Of a stretch of DNA of 64,000 bases, positions 22,587 to 51,575 are shown one piece after another. The notes under the pieces were generated by a model. The model saw only the letters and a list, made by a program, of their open reading frames with translations, was not told the origin of the DNA and ran no database searches. The number at the start of each line of letters is the position of its first letter. Position 1 is the first letter of the stretch. The stretch is taken from contig NC_089239.1 in NCBI RefSeq assembly GCF_963924675.1, forward strand, positions 36,293,818-36,357,817. The letters are read 5' to 3'. This DNA comes from Phocoena phocoena (Eukaryota > Chordata > Mammalia > Artiodactyla > Phocoenidae). Position numbers and translations under genes: made by a program.

Positions 22587-22760
22587 GATGCAGGGGACAC
22601 GGGTTCGTGCCCCGGTCCGGGAAGATCCCACATGCCGCGGAGCGGCTGGGCCCGTGAGCCATGGCCGCTGAGCCTGCGCGTCCGGAGCCTGTGCTCCGCA
22701 ACGGGAGAGGCCACAACAGTGAGAGGCCCGCGTACCGCAAAAAACAAACAAACAAAAAGA
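22587..22760 (+). mobile_element. CHR-type SINE, 5'-truncated
   Basis: Begins inside the element at GATGCAGGGGACACGGGTTC, just after a short (CA)n run, and ends in an (AAAC)n tail. It directly abuts an L1 3' fragment. Confidence 0.9.
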
Positions 22761-22764
22761 AAAT

Positions 22765-29133: not shown

Positions 29134-32100
29134 GGAATATTACTCAACCATGAAAAAGAACGAAATAACGCCATTTGCAGCAACATGGATGCAACGAGAG
29201 ATTATCAAACTAAGTGAAGTTAGAAAGAGAAAGACAAATACCATATGATATCACTTGTATGTGGAACCTAGAATATGATACAAATGAACCTATCTAGGAA
29301 ACAGAAACAGACTCGTGGACATAGAGAACAGATTTGTGGTTGCCAAGGGGGAGGGGTTGGGGGAAGGATGGAGTGTGAGGTTGGGGTCAGCAGATGTGAG
29401 CTTTTATATACAGGATGCATAAACAACAAGGTCCTACTGTAGAGCACAGGGAACTATATTCAGTATCCTGTGATAAACCATAATGGAAAAGAATGTATAC
29501 ATATATATAACTGAATCACTTTGCCGTACGGCAGAAATTAGCACAACATTGTAAATCAACTATACTTCAATTAAGAAATAAATTTTTAAAATAAATAAAA
29601 TAAATAAAAAGATGCTTCCAAGTGTGGAGGTCAGGCATCCCACATAGAAATTAAACATCAGACAAGGTCAAGTGTGTTTTCTTCATCAGGCCTTCCAGCG
29701 CCTTCTCCTCCACACGCCTCCCACTCACCTGAAGGAAACCCCGGCCATTTCCAACATGAGCCTCGCGGCTCTTGTCTCATTGCTGTCGTGGTATTTATCA
29801 GACATGAAAATGACTTCTTTTATCCCTTAAAAGGCAACAATGAAAGAAACCTCATTATGTGCACACAGAGATACAACAAGAGGCATGCGGACGGAAGCCC
29901 TGGGGGAGTCTGATTAATCAACTTTCCTGAGGGTGCGAGCACACAATGTCCAGCGACTGAAATATGTATCTGCTGCTCTCAAATACAGCAGCACATGGAT
30001 TCTGTTTAATCTGCCCTCCAGTCTTTATGGATTTTTTTAAAATAAATGCAAAGTGAAAACATGTCAAATAGTCAAGCCTTGATCCGATTAACAAATTTTC
30101 TTTACTGCAGGCAATCAAATATTCTTTATTCGCAAGGCAACGACTCCTAACTCAAGAGGCTAACGGGGGTGGTGGAGAACACTGGCAGAATCAGAGATGA
30201 GGACCACCGTGCTGCCAGGAATGGCTCTGCAGACCAGTTCAAGCCAGCTTGACAGAGGGCAGATCTGTTTCCTACCCCTGTCTCACCAGGCAGTTCTAAC
30301 TTGAGGGCCAAGAATCTGGAGGGCACTTGACAATCACTCGCTCCTCCACGAGCCTCAGAAGGGACCACAGGGGCTTCCCTGGTGGTGCAGTGGTTGGGAG
30401 TCCGCCTGCCGATGCAGGGGACGCGGGTTCGTGCCCCGGTCCGGGAAGATCCCACATGCCGCGGAGCGGCTGGGCCCGTGAGCCATGGCCGCTGAGCCTG
30501 CGCGTCCGGAGCCTGTGCTCCGCAACGGGAGAGGCCACAGCAGTGAGAGGCCCGCGTACCGCAAAAAAACAAAAGGGACCACAGGAGGCTGCTCTTCCCA
30601 TGCACCTGCCGCCGCCACTGTGCTAAGGATGGCGAGGAAAACTCGCGAAGGGTCGTACACCCCCAGGGAGGGAGCCCACGAGACTCTTTAACTGAGATCT
30701 TTGATCCTGATTCCACCAGACCGCTTCTGCTCAGAGATCCAGGGCTCGGGATAAACAGCCCCGTTAAAGCACACATCTGGCCAACGTGGTAAGTCTTTAA
30801 ATCTCAAGCCGAGAGCTTTATGGAGATAAAGTGTAGCTGAATCTTAGATGCGACAGTTTGAAAAAGGTGAAAGATTCCGAACACAATGGTGCAGATTTAT
30901 GGTAACCGTAATGTAAGAAAAACTTCAAGTTGTACCATTTGAGTCTTATGACATTTATATGCAAAGAGATGTTTAGGTCCTCATATATCTACCATATATT
31001 AGATACAAATTAAAATTTCATTTACAGACTCCCAGCTGACCTTGTTTCTGACAGAAGTTCATTTCTCTCCCTCCTCCCTAATCTATGCACAATACGTCAG
31101 AGAATAGTAAATTGTCAGTAGTTATATGCAATGCTGGTGGTGTTTTTTGGCAGCTTGCAGTTTAGGAAGTTGCAAACTAAATTAAAAACATGCTAAGAAT
31201 CACAGAGGATGCAATTAGTCTTAGAATACCTGGCACCATTCAAAAACAAAACCCAGGAAATACCTTGCAAAGCTGATAGCGCAGTTAATTTAGATCTAAA
31301 CAATAGCGATTTGAGATCAAACACATCTACAGCGAGCAGGCGGCAATGCAAATGTGACGAACGGGAACGGCCGGGTCCTACCTGCCTGGATGATGAGCTT
31401 CGCACATTCATTACACGGGAACAAGGCGACATACATGGTACAGCCTTTCACATCTGCTGAGTTTTTGTTCATAATGGCATTCAGCTCGGCGTGGCACACT
31501 GTGGGTTTGAAGGAGAAAGAAAGAAAAACTTTGATTGCAAGCTCATGAAGAATTCGCTAAGAGTGTTGAGGCATTCCGTTTGCCCCTATGAAATAACACA
31601 GATAACAGGCTCAATTTTTAAAAAACTGATGAGAGACGGAAAGTACCAAGAAATGCAGGCCACGTGGTCTGACAGGTTGGTGATGAGCAGCGTGGACCGC
31701 AGCAGCCCCGGGCCTGTTAGCACCTACAGCAGCCAGGAGGGGCCAAGGTCAATTGTCCCCATCCACCCCAAGCAGAGCGATGGCTCACCGCTCCCCAAGA
31801 CCCACAAGGCGGGGACGGAACCACCAGCACAAAACGGCTCACTGTGTGCCGATAACGCTCACGCGGGACATTCGCCAGGGCCACCAAGCGGGCAAAGGGC
31901 AATTCTGAGAGCAAGAGCGTCAGGAAGTGAAGCTGAGCGTTTCTGTCCCCAGGGATATGCTACACCGCGTGGCCCTCAGCCCGCACACACCAAAGAAGAG
32001 TGCCGGCGGATAACCAGCCGCTTGTCTTCCCTACGAAAACCATCCATCCACTTAATGGCCGTGCAAAGTCAAGTTCTCGCCAGACTGGTCAGTGATCCCC

Positions 32101-45400: not shown

Positions 45401-48400
45401 CGGATGGCTAGGCAGGGGAGGGATGTTGGGTCGCCACCAGTGAAATTAGAATTCTGCAGGAAAAGAAACAGCAAGTCATCAAATCCATGGATCTGCCTAA
45501 CAAAACCAGAGGGCATTCAGTTTCAACCGGCTGAGGGAATAACTTTGATCTTAATTACTAAGAAGCTCTTACGTTGTGAGGATGTTGCAGCTTAAGAAGG
45601 AGCAGCCTCCTAACTTCCTGATAAATTAGTTTCTCAAGACTAACCTTTCGGACGCCAGAGAAATACATCACATGCATGGCAGTCGGGAAAATGTCAGTGT
45701 TCAAAGGGGTAAAAGGTAAACGGCTAAGTAATCCCTAAGACGACATCTATGCACGCTTAACAACACGCTACATCTGAAAAATAAAGACTACATTTAAACA
45801 GAAAATGTAAAGAAGCCACACGCCGGCAAAACTGTTTCAAGCTGCCACGCTGAACTCATGCCTTAATTAATTTCCAGCATTTTCCTTCCCAGCATTATAC
45901 TTTTTTTTTTTGACCACGCTGCACGGCATGTGGGATTTCTTAGTCCCCCGACCAGGGATCGAACCCGCGGCCCCTGCAGTGGAAGCACAGATTCTTAACC
46001 AGTGAGAGTTTTCCTGCATAAATATGAACTGACTCTGGAAAAAGTCTCATGCCTCCATGTCTGCCTGATGCATCAGAGTGCGGGGCTACCCCCACCTTGG
46101 GACATCAAGACTATGGTCCCCTCCACGAGTGCGATGCAACAGCCAAAGCCATCCTGGCTTCTTGATTGACTGGGATGGAAGAGGAGGCCAAGCGAAGAGG
46201 CCTGCTTCCCCACAAATCCCTTCCCCAATGGGAACCAGCATGGCAGGAAAATGCATTCAAGTTTGATGGGCGTGGGAGCTCTGTTAAAAACATGAAGTTT
46301 AACAACGGCTCTCAAGGAAGAAAGAAGTTGATTCTATGCCAGCACTCTGGTCTGTAAACCACGTCATCAAAATTGGTTATGAAAACCTGAGGAAAGAGTG
46401 ATCTCTGAATTACCACAAGTATTTCGCCTCCATTTTATAAAATTGGTATTTTGATTAAATGTGCTTCACTCTGATGAATCCCGCAAAGAGAAAGGAGCGG
46501 AAAGTGTCAGCTGAGTGCTTCATTCTGGGGTTAGCAACCACCCCTCATAAAAATTAAAGTCTTCCGAAGTTCTTTACAAGGTAAATTAGGTATATCTGCT
46601 CCTTTCCCGTTTTTTTTTCATTGTCATTCATGTGAAAAGGCGTCACTATAATAGCGCTGGCTTCCTCCTGCCACTTACTCTTACTGACATCATACTATCT
46701 TTTGGATTTCTCAGGAAAAAGATGAGATAAAAGGCAGTTTCCTTGGCAGGGGGAATTTTCATTTTCCATATTAATACCACATTATAATCAAATCGTTTCA
46801 GTGAAGTTTTGATCCTAAGCCTGGAAGAACAAAAACACCCTTTAAAAATGCCTCTCTAGAGACACAGCCCAGAAAAAACACCATCTTCCTACTCTGTTAC
46901 ACGTATTCTGTGTTTACCTCCCCTTCCACAGAGTGTCAATCAAGACTAATGACTTCCAAACTTACAGAATTAATAAGGAGAATTAAGCTATATATGTTAA
47001 CCAGTAAACTTAAACTTACACAGTTCCCAAGCTCCCCTTGGGAGAAATGTGAAGGGAAGCCAGGTGCAAAGGGCTTCCTGCTTCATCCTAGGCGCAGGCC
47101 ACCACCACCTGAGCTCTCGACCTCTGGGGGGTCATTTCATTGAAACCTCTGTTTGCTCAAGTGCACGGCGAGAAGAAAATGGGTGGCCCACCGTGCCGCC
47201 ATGTACCCACTTCAGAAAAGCCGAATTCCCGTGCCCCACTGCCCCCGCAAGGAAGCACAGAGTGCTGGCCTCGGCATTAGAAGATGTCACCCTGCCTGTG
47301 TGGCATTGTGTTAGTTACTTAACGTTTCTGGGCCTTCCGGTTCCCATCCATGAATGAAGTGGGTAGCTGAGACCCCGTGGGCACAAACCCCAAGGTACCA
47401 CTGAGGTTCTGCCAGGGCTACAGGGACGGTCCACAGACTGGCAAACATATGTCTAGCACTTACATACACTTTTTTCCAAACATCAGGAAAGTTCAGATTA
47501 ATGCAAAGTGTTACTGATATCAAATAGCTTTTTGTCATCACGGATCTTCTTACTCAAAAGATACTCATAAAAGGTATGATCTCACTTTTGTGTGGAATCT
47601 AAAAAACAAAAACAAGCTCACAGATACACAGACCAGATGGGTGGTTGCCAGAGGGGGGAGGTGGGTGGGAGGTACAAACTTCCAGTTATGAAATGAAGTC
47701 CTGTGATGTTCAGCATGGTGACTGTAGTTAATAATAAAACAGTACTGACACTTGAAGGTTGCTAAGAGAGTAGGTCTTGCAAATCTTCATGGTAAGAAAA
47801 AAAACTTTGTAAACATATCAAATACTGATACATACGAACCATCATGTCCTCTACCTGTAACTAGTGTAACTTTGTATGTCAATCATACCTCAGTTCTTTT
47901 AAAAAGATACTACTAGTTTAACTAGCATTATATAGGGGTCTTGGAAGGTTTTTTTGACATTTAAAAGAGGGTCCCCATATACTCGGAAGAATTAGGAAGC
48001 CAGTGGTCTGGAATCTAGATAACCTCTAAAGCTCCTCTACAGGGATGGACACAGAGTCATCCCTGAGACAGCAGCCCAGCCACCGTTAACGCCCACCCAA
48101 GTCCAGACATTATCACTTATTTTTTTTGACTTCTTTTTTTTTTTTTTTTTTTTGCGGTACGCGGGCCTCTCACTGCTGCGGCCTCTCCCGCTGCGGAGCA
48201 CAGGCTCCGGACGCACAGGCTCAGCGGCCATGGCTCACGGGCCCAGCCGCTCCGCGGCATGTGGGATCTTCCCGGACCGGGGCACGAACCCGCGTCCCCT
48301 GCATCGGCAGGCGGACTCTCCACCACTGCGCCACCAGGGAAGCCCCATCACTTATTTTTTTAAATTAATTTTCTTTAAGTCTTAAAACAGAAAAAAAGAA

Positions 48401-51400
48401 TTTGCATTTAGTCAATTAGCACCAAACATTTCTATTACATCCAAGGCTACCTAAACATTTACTTCTCTGTGACCCAAAATCCCTTCAAAAGACAAGACCG
48501 AGTGGATACTTTACAGCCAGTCATAGTTATTCAGACTTAAAGCCCATCTTTACATGTATTATGATGGTAGTGATACTAAATGCCTTTTAAAAACCACTTA
48601 ATACGTTCTCCGACTTTTACGGTACATCAAATTATAGGCTTACTCTCGTGAAAGAAAACTGTCTACATTCTAACACAGCTACATGTAAAATGAATAATTG
48701 ATAAGTAAGGGGCAAAGAGCTTTGAAAACCTAGAGGTATCACATGGATAGTAAAAAATAATGCACACAGACAACCAGTGCCCTGAAACTCAGCAACCATT
48801 CAATAGAAAACAATCAGTGGAGCTGGACAAATGCCTGTGTGGGTTTTTTTTTTTTTAATTCCTTCTGGAAAGGAGCTCTGAAAGGTACTCTCCAACTTGG
48901 ACAAAAGGCAAGTGTCTCAGAACAAACACAATTAGCTACTGGAGAGGTTCTGGAAGTGGGAAGTCGGGGGATGGTAAATATGCTGCAAAGCCTTGGGCTT
49001 CTAGGTCACTGCCAGAAATGTGCCTGGGGCTCATGGTGATTGAAGGAGGCACAGGTCCTACGGGAGAGCCGCCCGGTAACCAGTGAGGACCCCTCTACGC
49101 CGTGCAGACCACTGGCATCGTTTTGCCACCAGCCTCAGCGTCACAGCCTCCTCTACAGGGAAGCTCAGCGCCGGGACCCACAGCCCACTATCCTGACTCA
49201 GTGAATACGGGCTGCGGTCCTTACACACATCACCGTGGACCTTGAATTCATCAACCCTTTCATCTTTATGTGGGACCCTGAACTGTCCTGTGAAAAAGCA
49301 CCTTTGCGTGTGCCTACAATGAACGAATCATTTCCCTTCTTTCTCATCACTGAAAGCATACAGAACCAAAAGCAGGGTGACCACGAGTTTCTCAAATACA
49401 CTGGCACATCTTTCCCGCGCTCCACTCGGCTATAAAGCTGAGGCTGAGAAGGCAGTTTTACCCTCTTTTCCCCGGGATCCGACTCTTCCTTCTCTGACAA
49501 GGGGGCGAGTTAAATGGACTAACCCGACGATGAAATCCCCTTAATCACGGAACTGTTCTATTCCCTGAGAACCCTGAGTGCTTTGTAGCTCTCCCCAGTC
49601 TCATTCTTCAATTCCTTCTCCACCTCCAGGCACTTTTTTTCTTTTTCTTTCAAAAACAAAGCAGTTGCCCTGAAGCAGCTTAGAAAGAAATTTATGGGGC
49701 TTATTTAACCTGATTAAGGCCCAGGAACATTAGTAAAAATATATAACGTAGGCTACATGTAGACTTGGAGCTCTTCGTGAGAAAAACTCCAGAGGAAAAC
49801 CTAGCAGGGAAGAGCCAATGAAACAGAAAGGGCTCACACGACACCTGACCCTTATTTCCTGAGGGCACAGATTTCCCATTCGGATGGCCTGCATCTACGT
49901 TACTTCCAGCAGAGGCAGTCTGTTCATTTCCAGACATAAATTCAGGCCCAAACGTTAAGAAAATTCAGCAACCAGCATTTGCGGCCCGATGCGCCTCTTT
50001 ACAGCATGAGTTGCATATTCTCCAGGGAGTTAAAGGAAAAGGGAGGCTTGGCTGGTCACTCCCAGATAATCTCTGAAGTGAGTCCCCCTGGGGCTCAGAT
50101 AGCCAACAGATTACTCTCCTAATTTAAAGATGAAAACCAGAGTCGGCCAGGCCAAAGGTCTCGCGTGCGCATCTGGCTCGCGGTCTGGCCAGCGGCCACT
50201 CTGGGAATGCAGCGCCCGGGGAAACAGGAGCAAGCGACAGCATCATCCCTCTCTGGGCGTCCAGCTCACAGCTTGTGTCCTGCTTCCCAGAGACGAGCTT
50301 GAGCCAGATTTCCTCAGTAGATGGAAATGCACGCTGCTTCTCACCAGAGCAAAGCCCTGGCCAGTACTTGGTTAGCTGGCCCCGCTCCCAAGCAGCCAGG
50401 AAACAAATGGCAGGGCCACCGTGCCCACTTCACAGCCACCTCCCCCGGGGGCTGTAGCACTCTGCAGAGAAGCCCACCACCAGTGAAACACGCGAGGCCC
50501 ATGACAGAGCCCTGGCCCCAGGGCCAGGCTGTGTGACCACTACCACGCCTCCACTTCTTGGCTCCCTTTGGCACTTAGGGGAAATTGGGGTACTTCAATA
50601 GGATCTTTTTTTCTTTCCAGCTGTCGGTAACAACTGAAAAGGAAGATGATGCTTTCTGACCATCTACCGTATTTAAGCACTCACCGAGGCTATGACACAA
50701 GCAGAACGGAACACACAACATGCCCTACCGTAAGGGTATTTGGTATCCAGTATACTCTCCGCTGTCCTCCTCCAAGGCAAGAGGTCATCGCTGCATCCAT
50801 TTGGCATTCCATTGTACCCAATGCCCACAATCTTGTTTTCTGCATTCACGATGCAGGCTCCGACCTACAGGAAGACATGCCCAAAGGCTTGGTGACTTTG
50901 GGTGGCTGGTCTGCCAGTGGAGAGGCAGTAAGGGAGACCAGAGGCCTGCAGAGCTCCAAGATGGGCATGCTACTTCTGGAGGGGCTAAGAGCTCTGTCTC
51001 CTTGGGGTACGAGAGGCAGTGAACGATGGCATGTGACAATTTACTCTCTCACAGGAAGAGGTAAGCAGGCAGGAATGCAGCACAAAAGACAGCAGATTTC
51101 CTCTGCTTTTTGTAAGTTGGCAGGTGTCCACTGAGCCTCTTCCTCTTGTAATTTGCTCACTTGTAGGTACCTCCGTGTCTGTGAGTGTCCAAACATTCTC
51201 CTGTAAAACTCACTTACCGGGCCTCCCCGGTGGCGCAGTGGTTGAGAGTCCGCCTGCCGATGCAAAGGACACGGGTTCGTGCCCCGGTCCGGGAAGATCC
51301 CACGTGCCGCGGAGCGGCTGGGCCCGTGAGCCATGGCCGCTGACCCTGCACGTCCGGAGCCTGCATGGACGTGCTCCGCAACGGAGAGGCCACAACAGTG

Positions 51401-51568
51401 AGAGGCTCGCGTACCGCAAAAAAAAAAACAAAAAAAACAAAACAAAAACAACTCACTTACCTGGGAGTTTGGATCTTTGCTCCTCTGTGCCGATAAGAAG
51501 GCCACTGCCATGAAATACTCAGGCCATTCCAAATAGTCATCACGTTTTTTACAGGGAAATTCACTCAT
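27685..51568 (-). CDS. DCTD: DCTD, deoxycytidylate (dCMP) deaminase, complete spliced coding sequence
   Basis: The coding sequence joins 51568-51461, 50864-50729, 31498-31382, 29825-29729 and 27763-27685 on the minus strand. All introns are GT-AG and all phases agree (0, 1, 0-type split of Gly, 2-base split of Arg), giving 178 codons and a TGA stop, the length of the usual human isoform. The enzyme is cytosolic and zinc-dependent. It converts dCMP to dUMP, the substrate of thymidylate synthase; family members are activated by dCTP and inhibited by dTTP. The cytidine-deaminase signature is intact: CHAE at residues 83-86 (zinc ligand His84, proton shuttle Glu86) and PCNEC at 109-113 (ligands Cys110 and Cys113). 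The [12 protein letters not shown] stretch sits at about residues 52-63. The start was chosen because MSE followed by [14 protein letters not shown] matches the family N-terminus and ATG has A at -3. I see no frameshift or premature stop. Confidence 0.97.
28940..29600 (+). mobile_element. LINE-1 3' fragment with CA microsatellite
   Basis: ORF2 tail motifs ([20 protein letters not shown]) and a complete artiodactyl-type L1 3' UTR ending in an (AAAT)n tail. Confidence 0.9.
29077..29131. repeat. (TG)n(CA)n microsatellite
   Basis: A TG run turns directly into 19 CA units, giving local self-complementarity. It lies within L1. Confidence 0.9.
29729..29825 (-). CDS. DCTD: DCTD exon 5
   Basis: The exon is 97 bp, with acceptor GCCTTTTAAG|GG and donor TTCAG|GTGAGTGG. 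It encodes [13 protein letters not shown], then [18 protein letters not shown], and ends two bases into an Arg codon. The first half matches the family closely. The second half differs at several positions from the human protein as I remember it (for example NETR against DEAT, and LMLEMAG against LLFNMAG), but the reading frame and both splice sites are intact. Confidence 0.95.
29826..31381 (-). other. DCTD: DCTD intron 4
   Basis: A 1.56-kb intron with one antisense CHR SINE (30372-30572). The rest shows no recognisable element. Confidence 0.85.
30372..30572 (+). mobile_element. CHR-type SINE, full length, in DCTD intron 4
   Basis: Starts GGCTTCCCTGGTGGTGCAG and ends GCGTACCGCAAAAAAACAA. Perfect target-site duplication aagggaccacagg at 30359-30371 and 30573-30585. 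Confidence 0.95.
31382..31498 (-). CDS. DCTD: DCTD exon 4 (catalytic zinc exon, codons 82-121)
   Basis: The exon is 117 bp, with acceptor AAACCCACAG|TG and donor GGCAG|GTAGGACC. It carries the whole active-site core: [12 protein letters not shown] with His84 and Glu86, and [16 protein letters not shown] with Cys110 and Cys113. Both ends are split codons (Val82 at the start, Gly at the end) that rejoin correctly with exons 3 and 5. Confidence 0.97.
32545..32605 (+). mobile_element. L2 3' tail
   Basis: 'gtgctagataaatgtttact' then 'gaatgaat'. Confidence 0.55.
32885..33208 (+). mobile_element. Solo LTR, ERV1-like
   Basis: LTR-like order: 'gattcttgcatcttcccata', a TATA-like 'gtatatacgtgg' (about 33057), AATAAAA at 33153-33159, and a GTCGACAAG end shared with the 2.1-kb element. 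No viral coding sequence is present. It is antisense to DCTD. Confidence 0.6.
36165..36345 (+). mobile_element. L2 internal fragment
   Basis: 'tttcccaaggctcaaccctg' and the following CT-rich run resemble the L2 ORF2 3' region. Confidence 0.45.
36459..36679 (-). mobile_element. CHR-type SINE in DCTD intron 3
   Basis: Minus-strand copy whose tail reads as a T run of about 25 on the plus strand. Duplication gagtgctagcgttttt at 36443-36458 and 36680-36695. Confidence 0.95.
40020..40285 (+). mobile_element. LINE-1 3' UTR, artiodactyl type
   Basis: 'gatagctagtgggaagcagc' to 'gcaattatactctaataagg' with an A-rich tail. A possible imperfect duplication is tcaaaaggcagt / tcaaaacggcagt. Confidence 0.9.
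40531..40820 (-). mobile_element. LINE-1 with inverted 5' part (twin priming)
   Basis: 40531-40799 encodes on the minus strand the ORF2 tail ([18 protein letters not shown], then [15 protein letters not shown]). It joins at about 40800 to the L1 3' terminus in plus orientation (atactccaataaagatgttc). Flanks share aaagacct (about 40523-40530 and 40825-40832). Confidence 0.85.
41540..43025 (+). mobile_element. Long L2 element remnant
   Basis: A CT-rich body with 'ctggaatgctgcagtggatc' and a typical L2 end ('caagctccttgaacacagag', 'gagcgcctggcacagaatac'). The long open frame at 41755-42432 falls in it. Confidence 0.6.
43720..43881. repeat. Tandem duplication, two 81-bp units
   Basis: 43720-43800 and 43801-43881 are identical except for one C/T difference (acctgaatc against atctgaatc). 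Intronic in DCTD. Confidence 0.97.
45899..46003 (-). mobile_element. CHR-1-like SINE, head missing
   Basis: Plus strand shows a T run, then GACCACGCTGCACGGCATG ... GATTCTTAACCA, and stops before the usual GCCAGGGAAGCC head. Confidence 0.8.
47565..47912 (+). mobile_element. LINE-1 3' fragment
   Basis: 'tggaatctaaaaaacaaaaa', 'gggtggttgccagagggggg' and an end 'gtcaatcatacctcagttct'. Confidence 0.8.
48127..48346 (-). mobile_element. CHR-type SINE in DCTD intron 3
   Basis: Minus-strand, full-length copy with a long T run at 48134-48153. Duplication atcacttattttttt at 48112-48126 and 48347-48361. Confidence 0.93.
50729..50864 (-). CDS. DCTD: DCTD exon 3 (codons 37-81 plus one base)
   Basis: The exon is 136 bp. 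The acceptor is CTTCCTGTAG and the donor ACG|GTAGGGC. It encodes [19 protein letters not shown], then [18 protein letters not shown], then ILDTKYPY, and ends with the first base of Val82. The GIGYNGMP segment forms part of the nucleotide-binding region of dCMP deaminases. The donor is weak beyond +3 (GTAGGG) but lies exactly where the family exon boundary is expected. Confidence 0.95.
50865..51206 (-). other. Remainder of DCTD intron 2
   Basis: Unique intron sequence between the SINE and the exon 3 acceptor. No further feature seen. Confidence 0.6.
51207..51218 (-). promoter_or_regulatory. Duplicated (decoy) splice donor of DCTD exon 2
   Basis: On the minus strand this reads G|GTAAGTGAGTT, identical to the true donor at 51461-51450. 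The preceding bases are CCG rather than CAG, so it lacks the consensus A at -2 and should be somewhat weaker. It lies 243 bp downstream of the true donor. Confidence 0.8.
51219..51449 (+). mobile_element. CHR-type tRNA-derived SINE inserted at the DCTD exon 2 splice donor
   Basis: A full-length SINE starting GGGCCTCCCCGGTGGCGCAG and ending in an A-rich tail. It is flanked by the perfect 12-bp duplication aactcacttacc (51207-51218 and 51450-51461). It lies antisense to DCTD. Relative to other copies in this window it carries a small insertion near 51363 and a one-base loss near 51385. The duplicated target is the splice donor itself, so the SINE sits between two copies of the 5' splice site. 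Confidence 0.95.
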
Positions 51569-51575
51569 GCTGGGT
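51461..51575 (-). CDS. DCTD: DCTD exon 2 (first coding exon, codons 1-36)
   Basis: The acceptor is a good pyrimidine tract ending TTCTAG at 51576-51577. Seven untranslated bases precede ATG at 51568-51566. The exon encodes MSEF...SKDPNSQ and ends in phase 0 at CAG|GTAAGTGAG. No stop lies between the acceptor and the ATG, so an upstream exon could add an N-terminal extension, as in a longer isoform known in human. The donor junction is itself part of a SINE target-site duplication (see the SINE at 51219). Confidence 0.95.

Follow-up and report, generated by a model that had tools for sequence, protein, structure and literature searches.

A CHR-type SINE has inserted, antisense to the gene, at the 5′ splice site of exon 2 of the deoxycytidylate deaminase gene (DCTD) of Phocoena phocoena, and its 12-bp target-site duplication has left the gene with two copies of that splice site. 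The duplication covers the last base of exon 2 and intron positions +1 to +11, and neither donor copy is damaged, which the sequence supports just as the preliminary description of this locus had proposed. We consider it likely that the insertion is shared by toothed whales and that the two donors compete, the original being dominant and the copy minor, with a product that depends on the length of the SINE tail. All positions given below refer to the stretch of 64,000 nucleotides (64 kb) that was analysed, here called the window.

The DCTD locus

DCTD lies on the minus strand of the window, where its five coding exons join into an intact frame of 178 codons with GT and AG at the intron borders. 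Exon 2 (51461..51575, minus strand) begins its coding part with the ATG at 51568 and contributes 36 codons (51568–51461), ending in phase 0; its start at 51575 is inferred from the acceptor TTCTAG/ACCCAGC. Exon 3 (50729..50864, minus strand) follows, and its acceptor, which had been placed correctly at 50864 in the preliminary description, is common to both donors. The later coding exons, also on the minus strand, were located at 31498–31382, 29825–29729 and 27763–27685 and complete the 178-residue protein. Since the joint translation of exons 2 and 3 is matched by human dCMP deaminase (PDB 2w4l, E = 2.8e-48), and since the coding exons give the intact 178-codon frame, the exon at the insertion is exon 2 of DCTD. 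The protein of the window differs from narwhal DCTD (P0029) at 1 of 178 positions, from the Tursiops isoform described below (P0017) at 1 of 142 shared positions, and from grey whale DCTD (P0084) at 4 of 159; by this measure the window belongs to a toothed whale.

A duplicated donor at both ends of a SINE

Read on the minus strand, exon 2 ends in ...CCCAG at 51461, the GT of the original donor occupies 51460–51459, and intron 2 starts with GTAAGTGAGTT. The 12 bp that span this border, GGTAAGTGAGTT (51450..51461, minus strand), are repeated exactly 243 nt downstream on the gene strand, at 51207..51218 (minus strand). The original donor therefore reads CAG/GTAAGTGA and the copied one CCG/GTAAGTGA, with its GT at 51217–51216 after the CCG that ends at 51218; the positions 51461 and 51218 and the 243-bp distance reported earlier for the two donors were right by this reading. 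From −1 to +11 the donors do not differ; at −2 the original has A and the copy has C. Their contexts differ as well, both in the upstream sequence and downstream, where the original is followed by a U-rich tract and the copy by native intron.

The CHR-type SINE itself occupies 51219..51449 on the plus strand (231 nt with its tail), antisense to DCTD. BLAST found five further long copies elsewhere in the window, with 86.6–89.6% identity to this one, as well as shorter pieces. When one mismatch was allowed, the plus-strand 12-mer AACTCACTTACC had two occurrences in the 64-kb window, at 51207–51218 and 51450–51461, and both were exact. In the shuffle control the mean was 0.33 matches and two were reached in 4 of 100 shuffles, therefore the rarity of the bare 12-mer is not our main argument. 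What is decisive for a target-site duplication is that the copies stand exactly at both ends of an A-tailed SINE, as they do in other intact copies. Exact duplications, of 12–16 nt counting adjoining A's, were present at 5 of the 9 CHR-like copies examined in the window (a count from which two short tail-only BLAST hits were left out), and at 5 of the 6 examined copies that bear a tail; the four copies that lack a duplication have been truncated or rearranged, and one of these four bears a tail. Thus, the duplication at DCTD is an ordinary mark of insertion and, as identical duplications are usual for CHR copies in the window, the conservation of the donor copy is no sign of selection.

The idea that the repeat reflects an assembly artefact or mere chance retains almost no probability. 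It is true that, if one mismatch is tolerated, finding such a 12-mer twice in 64 kb is by itself no great improbability, but the repeat lies exactly at both SINE ends, and a second species, Tursiops, has the same junction between the SINE and exon 3. As Tursiops shows the same insertion, an assembly error in particular is very unlikely.

The CHR family name used from the start was assigned from the cetacean context and from PMC6340175, which describes CHR2 as the predominant SINE of cetaceans, mobilised by LINE1. With regard to a tRNA-derived head with an internal pol III promoter, a candidate A box showed 0 mismatches and a candidate B box 2 in comparison with the consensus, as raw counts, and Rfam returned no match up to E = 1 in 51150–51500. 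The SINE differs from the consensus of four other copies at 11 of 192 compared positions, 3 of which are at CpG, and by 9 gap columns that comprise an 8-nt insertion and a 1-nt deletion; the four copies show 3, 8, 3 and 9 differences from their own consensus, to which all of them contributed. The 8-nt insertion, GCATGGAC, is absent from the four aligned long copies and is possibly a subfamily mark useful for dating. As a separate observation, the CHR copy at 22587–22763 has its first 40 bases replaced, its start adjoins a CACACA run, and it carries a tail but no target-site duplication; it is a 5′-truncated or rearranged insertion.

Strength of the two donors

All 3625 GTs of the gene strand were scored with a donor matrix and, as a second measure, with the energy of pairing with the 5′ end of U1. 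The original donor (matrix 12.61; U1 −12.9) ranked 1st by matrix and 2nd by U1 energy, and the copied donor (matrix 10.4; U1 −10.1 kcal/mol) was tied for 5th–6th and ranked 15th, respectively. The copy is stronger on both measures than the donor of exon 3 (6.47; −8.4), exceeds that of exon 4 by matrix (8.43) but is slightly weaker by U1 energy (−10.7), and is weaker than both the original and the donor of exon 5 (12.48; −13.3). Judged by matrix and U1 energy, exon 2 is thus predicted to have two competent, consensus-strong donors.

In the pre-mRNA, the A-tail of the antisense SINE forms a U-rich tract (51418..51449, minus strand) with 28 T out of 32 at intron +12 to +43, including a run of 11 T at +33 to +43, behind the original donor. 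In an ADAR2 minigene, a polypyrimidine tract between two 5′ splice sites was reported to favour the upstream site, TIA1/TIAR binding was observed, and overexpression of TIA1 or TIAR increased the upstream choice; the full effect needed at least 9 U and became weaker with distance, a sufficiently strong downstream donor won despite the tract, and siRNA depletion of TIA proteins produced no shift (PMC2766253). In DCTD, as in this minigene, which concerns an Alu exonization, a U-rich tract derived from a SINE separates two donors that compete, and the upstream one is, or in DCTD would be, favoured. On the other hand, the downstream donor of the minigene was engineered and its exon is Alu-derived, whereas the donors of DCTD come from one native site and serve an ordinary coding exon.

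Local RNA folding gave a mean unpaired probability of 0.62 for the original donor, 0.30 for the copy and 0.44 for the empty site, and of 0.40 (sd 0.14) for 150 random GTs. The openness of the original is high, since 4.7% of the random GTs reach 0.62; the low openness of the copy is ordinary, with 22% of the 150 being as low or lower. As the original matches U1 perfectly, ends its native exon, lies in RNA that is more open and is followed by U-rich sequence such as TIA1/TIAR are recruited to, we infer that it dominates and wins most of the time.

The potential extended exon and its reading frames

Use of the copied donor together with exon 2 would add the segment 51218..51460 (minus strand) to this exon. 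The segment measures 243 nt, or 81 codons, and is stop-free in the DCTD frame, while the other two frames stop within the duplication itself. The 81 residues would be placed between Gln36 and Val37, which predicts a form of 259 residues, and the extended form would be no target of nonsense decay in the window because its frame is open. The extension also contains an ATG (GGCCATGGC) that opens a SINE-derived segment of 39 codons. When the tail was changed virtually by 0 or ±3 nt, the long form remained open; when it was altered by ±1 or ±2 nt, the frame of exon 2 ran into a stop in exon 3 after 122–143 residues, and the longest ORF was one of 181 residues starting from the SINE ATG.

A protein holding exon 2 together with the SINE insert should have ranked high in our protein searches; none was found in a named DCTD among the best 120 of 7991 or the best 120 of 697 matches. 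Beyond those inspected, the listed matches include P0101, a frog protein that covers 97% of the query. The narwhal (Monodon) protein P0029 has 259 residues like the predicted form, which is a coincidence, as it shows the ordinary join of exons 2 and 3 and a different N terminus. At the top of the 697-match search, P0124, P0121 and P0122 are unnamed proteins with two CHR-derived stretches and are not DCTD. Another Monodon protein, P0098, is DCTD-like with several substitutions and is without an 11-residue segment at the end of exon 3; it is possibly a retrocopy or a mis-spliced model.

A predicted Tursiops isoform joined at the copied donor

The best 120 of the 7991 matches to the 259-residue query included 'deoxycytidylate deaminase isoform X3' of Tursiops truncatus (P0017). 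This protein begins inside the antisense SINE and is devoid of residues from exon 2. Its SINE part ends in ...RHQGGP and is followed at once by VGACIVN..., the start of exon 3, which puts the junction exactly at the copied donor. Of the 39 residues that come from the SINE, 2 differ from the reading of the window, and the SINE end reads GGP in both. We checked 36 named cetacean proteins with antisense CHR sequence, 28 of which had the motif that precedes this ending; the ending read GSP in 24 of the 28 and GGP in none. Since GGP is common to the two and foreign to these others, Tursiops and the window share one insertion. Precise parallel insertions amount to 0.18–0.29% between the lineages tested in PMC10531181, and we rejected a parallel insertion in Tursiops in view of this rate and of the shared GGP ending, which favours one event. 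From this one protein model, the copied donor probably works, as a minor alternative that joins the SINE to exon 3.

A silent or noise-level copy, with the Tursiops isoform being a weakly supported prediction, is an explanation to which we would give roughly one chance in four. The original donor is stronger, more open and backed by the U-rich tract, and the matches inspected above (best 120 of 7991; best 120 of 697) hold no protein with exon 2 and the SINE, all of which would agree with a silent copy; yet a read-through or a random model would not place the junction of P0017 exactly at the copied donor, which moreover ranks near the top of all donor-like sites in the 64 kb.

With respect to how the SINE entered the Tursiops transcript, the length and layout of P0017 are those expected of an exon 2 extension with a tail of another length modulo 3, because the ORF of the shifted tail has 181 residues. 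A transcript that starts in the SINE or skips exon 2 would yield a 181-residue protein too. It may be, with a probability that we put equally low, that the copied donor is used while the SINE is an alternative first exon or part of one, or was entered through an acceptor after the poly-T; the Tursiops protein would then start at the SINE ATG because its mRNA has no exon 2. The start of P0017 inside the SINE and its lack of exon 2 residues fit this reading, as does the context of the SINE ATG (GGCCATGGC), which is near the Kozak optimum; however, the 181-residue ORF is equally expected from a plain extension of exon 2 once the tail length has shifted. As for an acceptor, the poly-T is followed by an AG at 51406 that could serve and would delimit an exon of 188 nt, but this nearest AG is only 55 nt from the original donor, which would make a short mammalian intron unless exon 2 is skipped, and the AGs that come after it, at distances of 87 and 100 nt from the donor, are further from the poly-T.

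Concerning the product, the Pfam match of P0017 (PF00383) starts at profile position 20 instead of 2, so the first part of the deaminase domain is missing. The predicted structure has a mean pLDDT of 69.1, with residues 1–37 below 50, and its best PDB match is human dCMP deaminase (2w4l_E; rmsd 6.7, and TM 0.57 when normalised to the query). At this confidence, the model allows no further conclusion than that disorder is probable for the SINE part. P0017 would be a poor enzyme, given the missing start of the deaminase domain together with the predicted disorder. The 51 members of the P0017 cluster were not taken as 51 SINE isoforms, as ordinary DCTDs may share a 90% cluster.

Antisense CHR peptides are carried by many annotated cetacean isoforms, as seen among the 36 named ones checked, usually near the C terminus; the gene models of cetaceans thus contain many putative exonizations of this SINE. 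Some of them, such as COQ10B of Phocoena (P0168) and AP3S1 of Tursiops (P0203), share the SINE family and the frame with P0017 in annotated isoforms. Most of the 28 readable antisense CHR proteins, however, continue past the SINE end into the flank, whereas P0017 is spliced exactly at the SINE border, by way of the duplicated donor. In P0203 (AP3S1 isoform X3), the CHR peptide ends in LRHQ and is followed by VHNILAEM; the donor used for this join apparently lies within the end of the SINE and not in the flanking DNA.

Proposed course of events

In the course of events that we propose, a CHR2-type SINE would have entered the exon 2/intron 2 boundary of DCTD in a toothed-whale ancestor, antisense to the gene, by LINE1-type target-primed insertion. 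As the resulting 12-bp duplication spans the 5′ splice site from −1 to +11, a working donor was left on each side, as read from the sequence. The U-rich tract behind the original donor may recruit TIA1/TIAR and favour the original, and the copied donor would act as a competent minor donor from the SINE to exon 3. With the tail found in the window, the extended transcript would read through in frame with 81 additional residues; a change of the tail that is not divisible by 3 would break the frame, and the longest frame would then be the 181-residue ORF from the SINE ATG. As enzymes, the proteins that contain SINE sequence are probably poor or inactive, so the insertion most likely owes its persistence to the normal DCTD that the original donor continues to provide.

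A further proposal, which we offer as speculative and hold to be improbable, is that the duplication provided toothed-whale DCTD with an equal second donor and that the SINE tail serves as a variable U-rich dial that sets both the choice of donor (through TIA1/TIAR) and the frame, yielding the normal, the 81-residue-longer and the 181-residue forms according to lineage or allele. Similarly doubtful is a tuned switch, by which tail length and TIA levels would set the share of a non-productive SINE form and so lower the output of DCTD by tissue or species, by analogy with merle. In the virtual frame test, tail length did decide the frame of the extended transcript, and in merle, a published case, splicing is tuned by the length of the poly(T) of an antisense SINE that lies at the splice boundary (PMC7349775); nevertheless, the extended frame is open in the window. 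Our preferred reading remains that of two competing donors, with the original dominant.

Comparison with known systems

In merle, a tRNA-derived SINEC_Cf lies antisense at the boundary of intron 10 and exon 11 of canine PMEL (PMC7349775). It shares with the DCTD insertion its antisense orientation and its place at the border of an exon and an intron, and likewise has a target-site duplication by the splice site, an original site that was kept, and poly(T) near the competing sites. Merle concerns the acceptor side, however, and its competing acceptor is within the SINE, whereas in DCTD it is the donor that is doubled and the SINE gives only the spacing, the tail and an ATG. Merle also has a phenotype and splicing data, while DCTD has one protein model.

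The Introners described in PMC9860276 are another case in which the target-site duplication of a transposon supplies a working splice site. They create a new intron within an exon, whereas the DCTD insertion doubles an existing donor at an existing border, and the number of DCTD introns is unchanged. A study of mulberry MITEs (PMC6593561) was considered as a precedent and set aside, as it is not concerned with target-site duplications that give donors.

Expected frequency and significance

The preliminary description had also called an insertion of this kind rare. The donor-copying insertion is real, but its rarity has to be stated with caution. For a genome of 2.4 Gb with about 180,000 donors, where −1 to +6 is covered by six placements of a 12-bp duplication, we estimate that roughly one in 2,000 insertions duplicates a donor. 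The CHR copies of toothed whales number in the hundreds of thousands (PMC10531181), so that donor duplications should have arisen tens to hundreds of times before selection; most may have been lost to it.

Transposon exonization, U-rich tracts that steer donor choice, and target-site duplications that supply splice sites are already known. What appears new is a mammalian donor doubled by a target-site duplication together with an annotated use of the copy: among the literature matches listed, from a search outside of which most subscription journals fall, no such doubled mammalian donor was found, and DCTD did not occur in the 20 papers listed of 246 matches to a further search. The insertion constitutes a natural experiment on the choice of 5′ splice sites, in which one pre-mRNA carries two donors that match from −1 to +11, stand at a distance of 243 nt and enclose a U-rich tract, and the empty-site state is readable in species without the insertion; as the donor pair is such a clean natural comparison, the locus is worth following. 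It also exemplifies a simple route by which a retroposon doubles a functional splice site while the gene stays unbroken, and it gives a class of testable loci, namely SINEs whose target-site duplication spans a donor.

Finally, the SINE at 51219–51449 (plus strand) and another CHR copy at 48123–48345 (minus strand), which are 88% alike and about 2.9 kb apart, form an inverted pair that flanks exon 3 of DCTD. Inverted SINE pairs can pair in RNA, and this one could favour circular RNA, exon skipping or editing.
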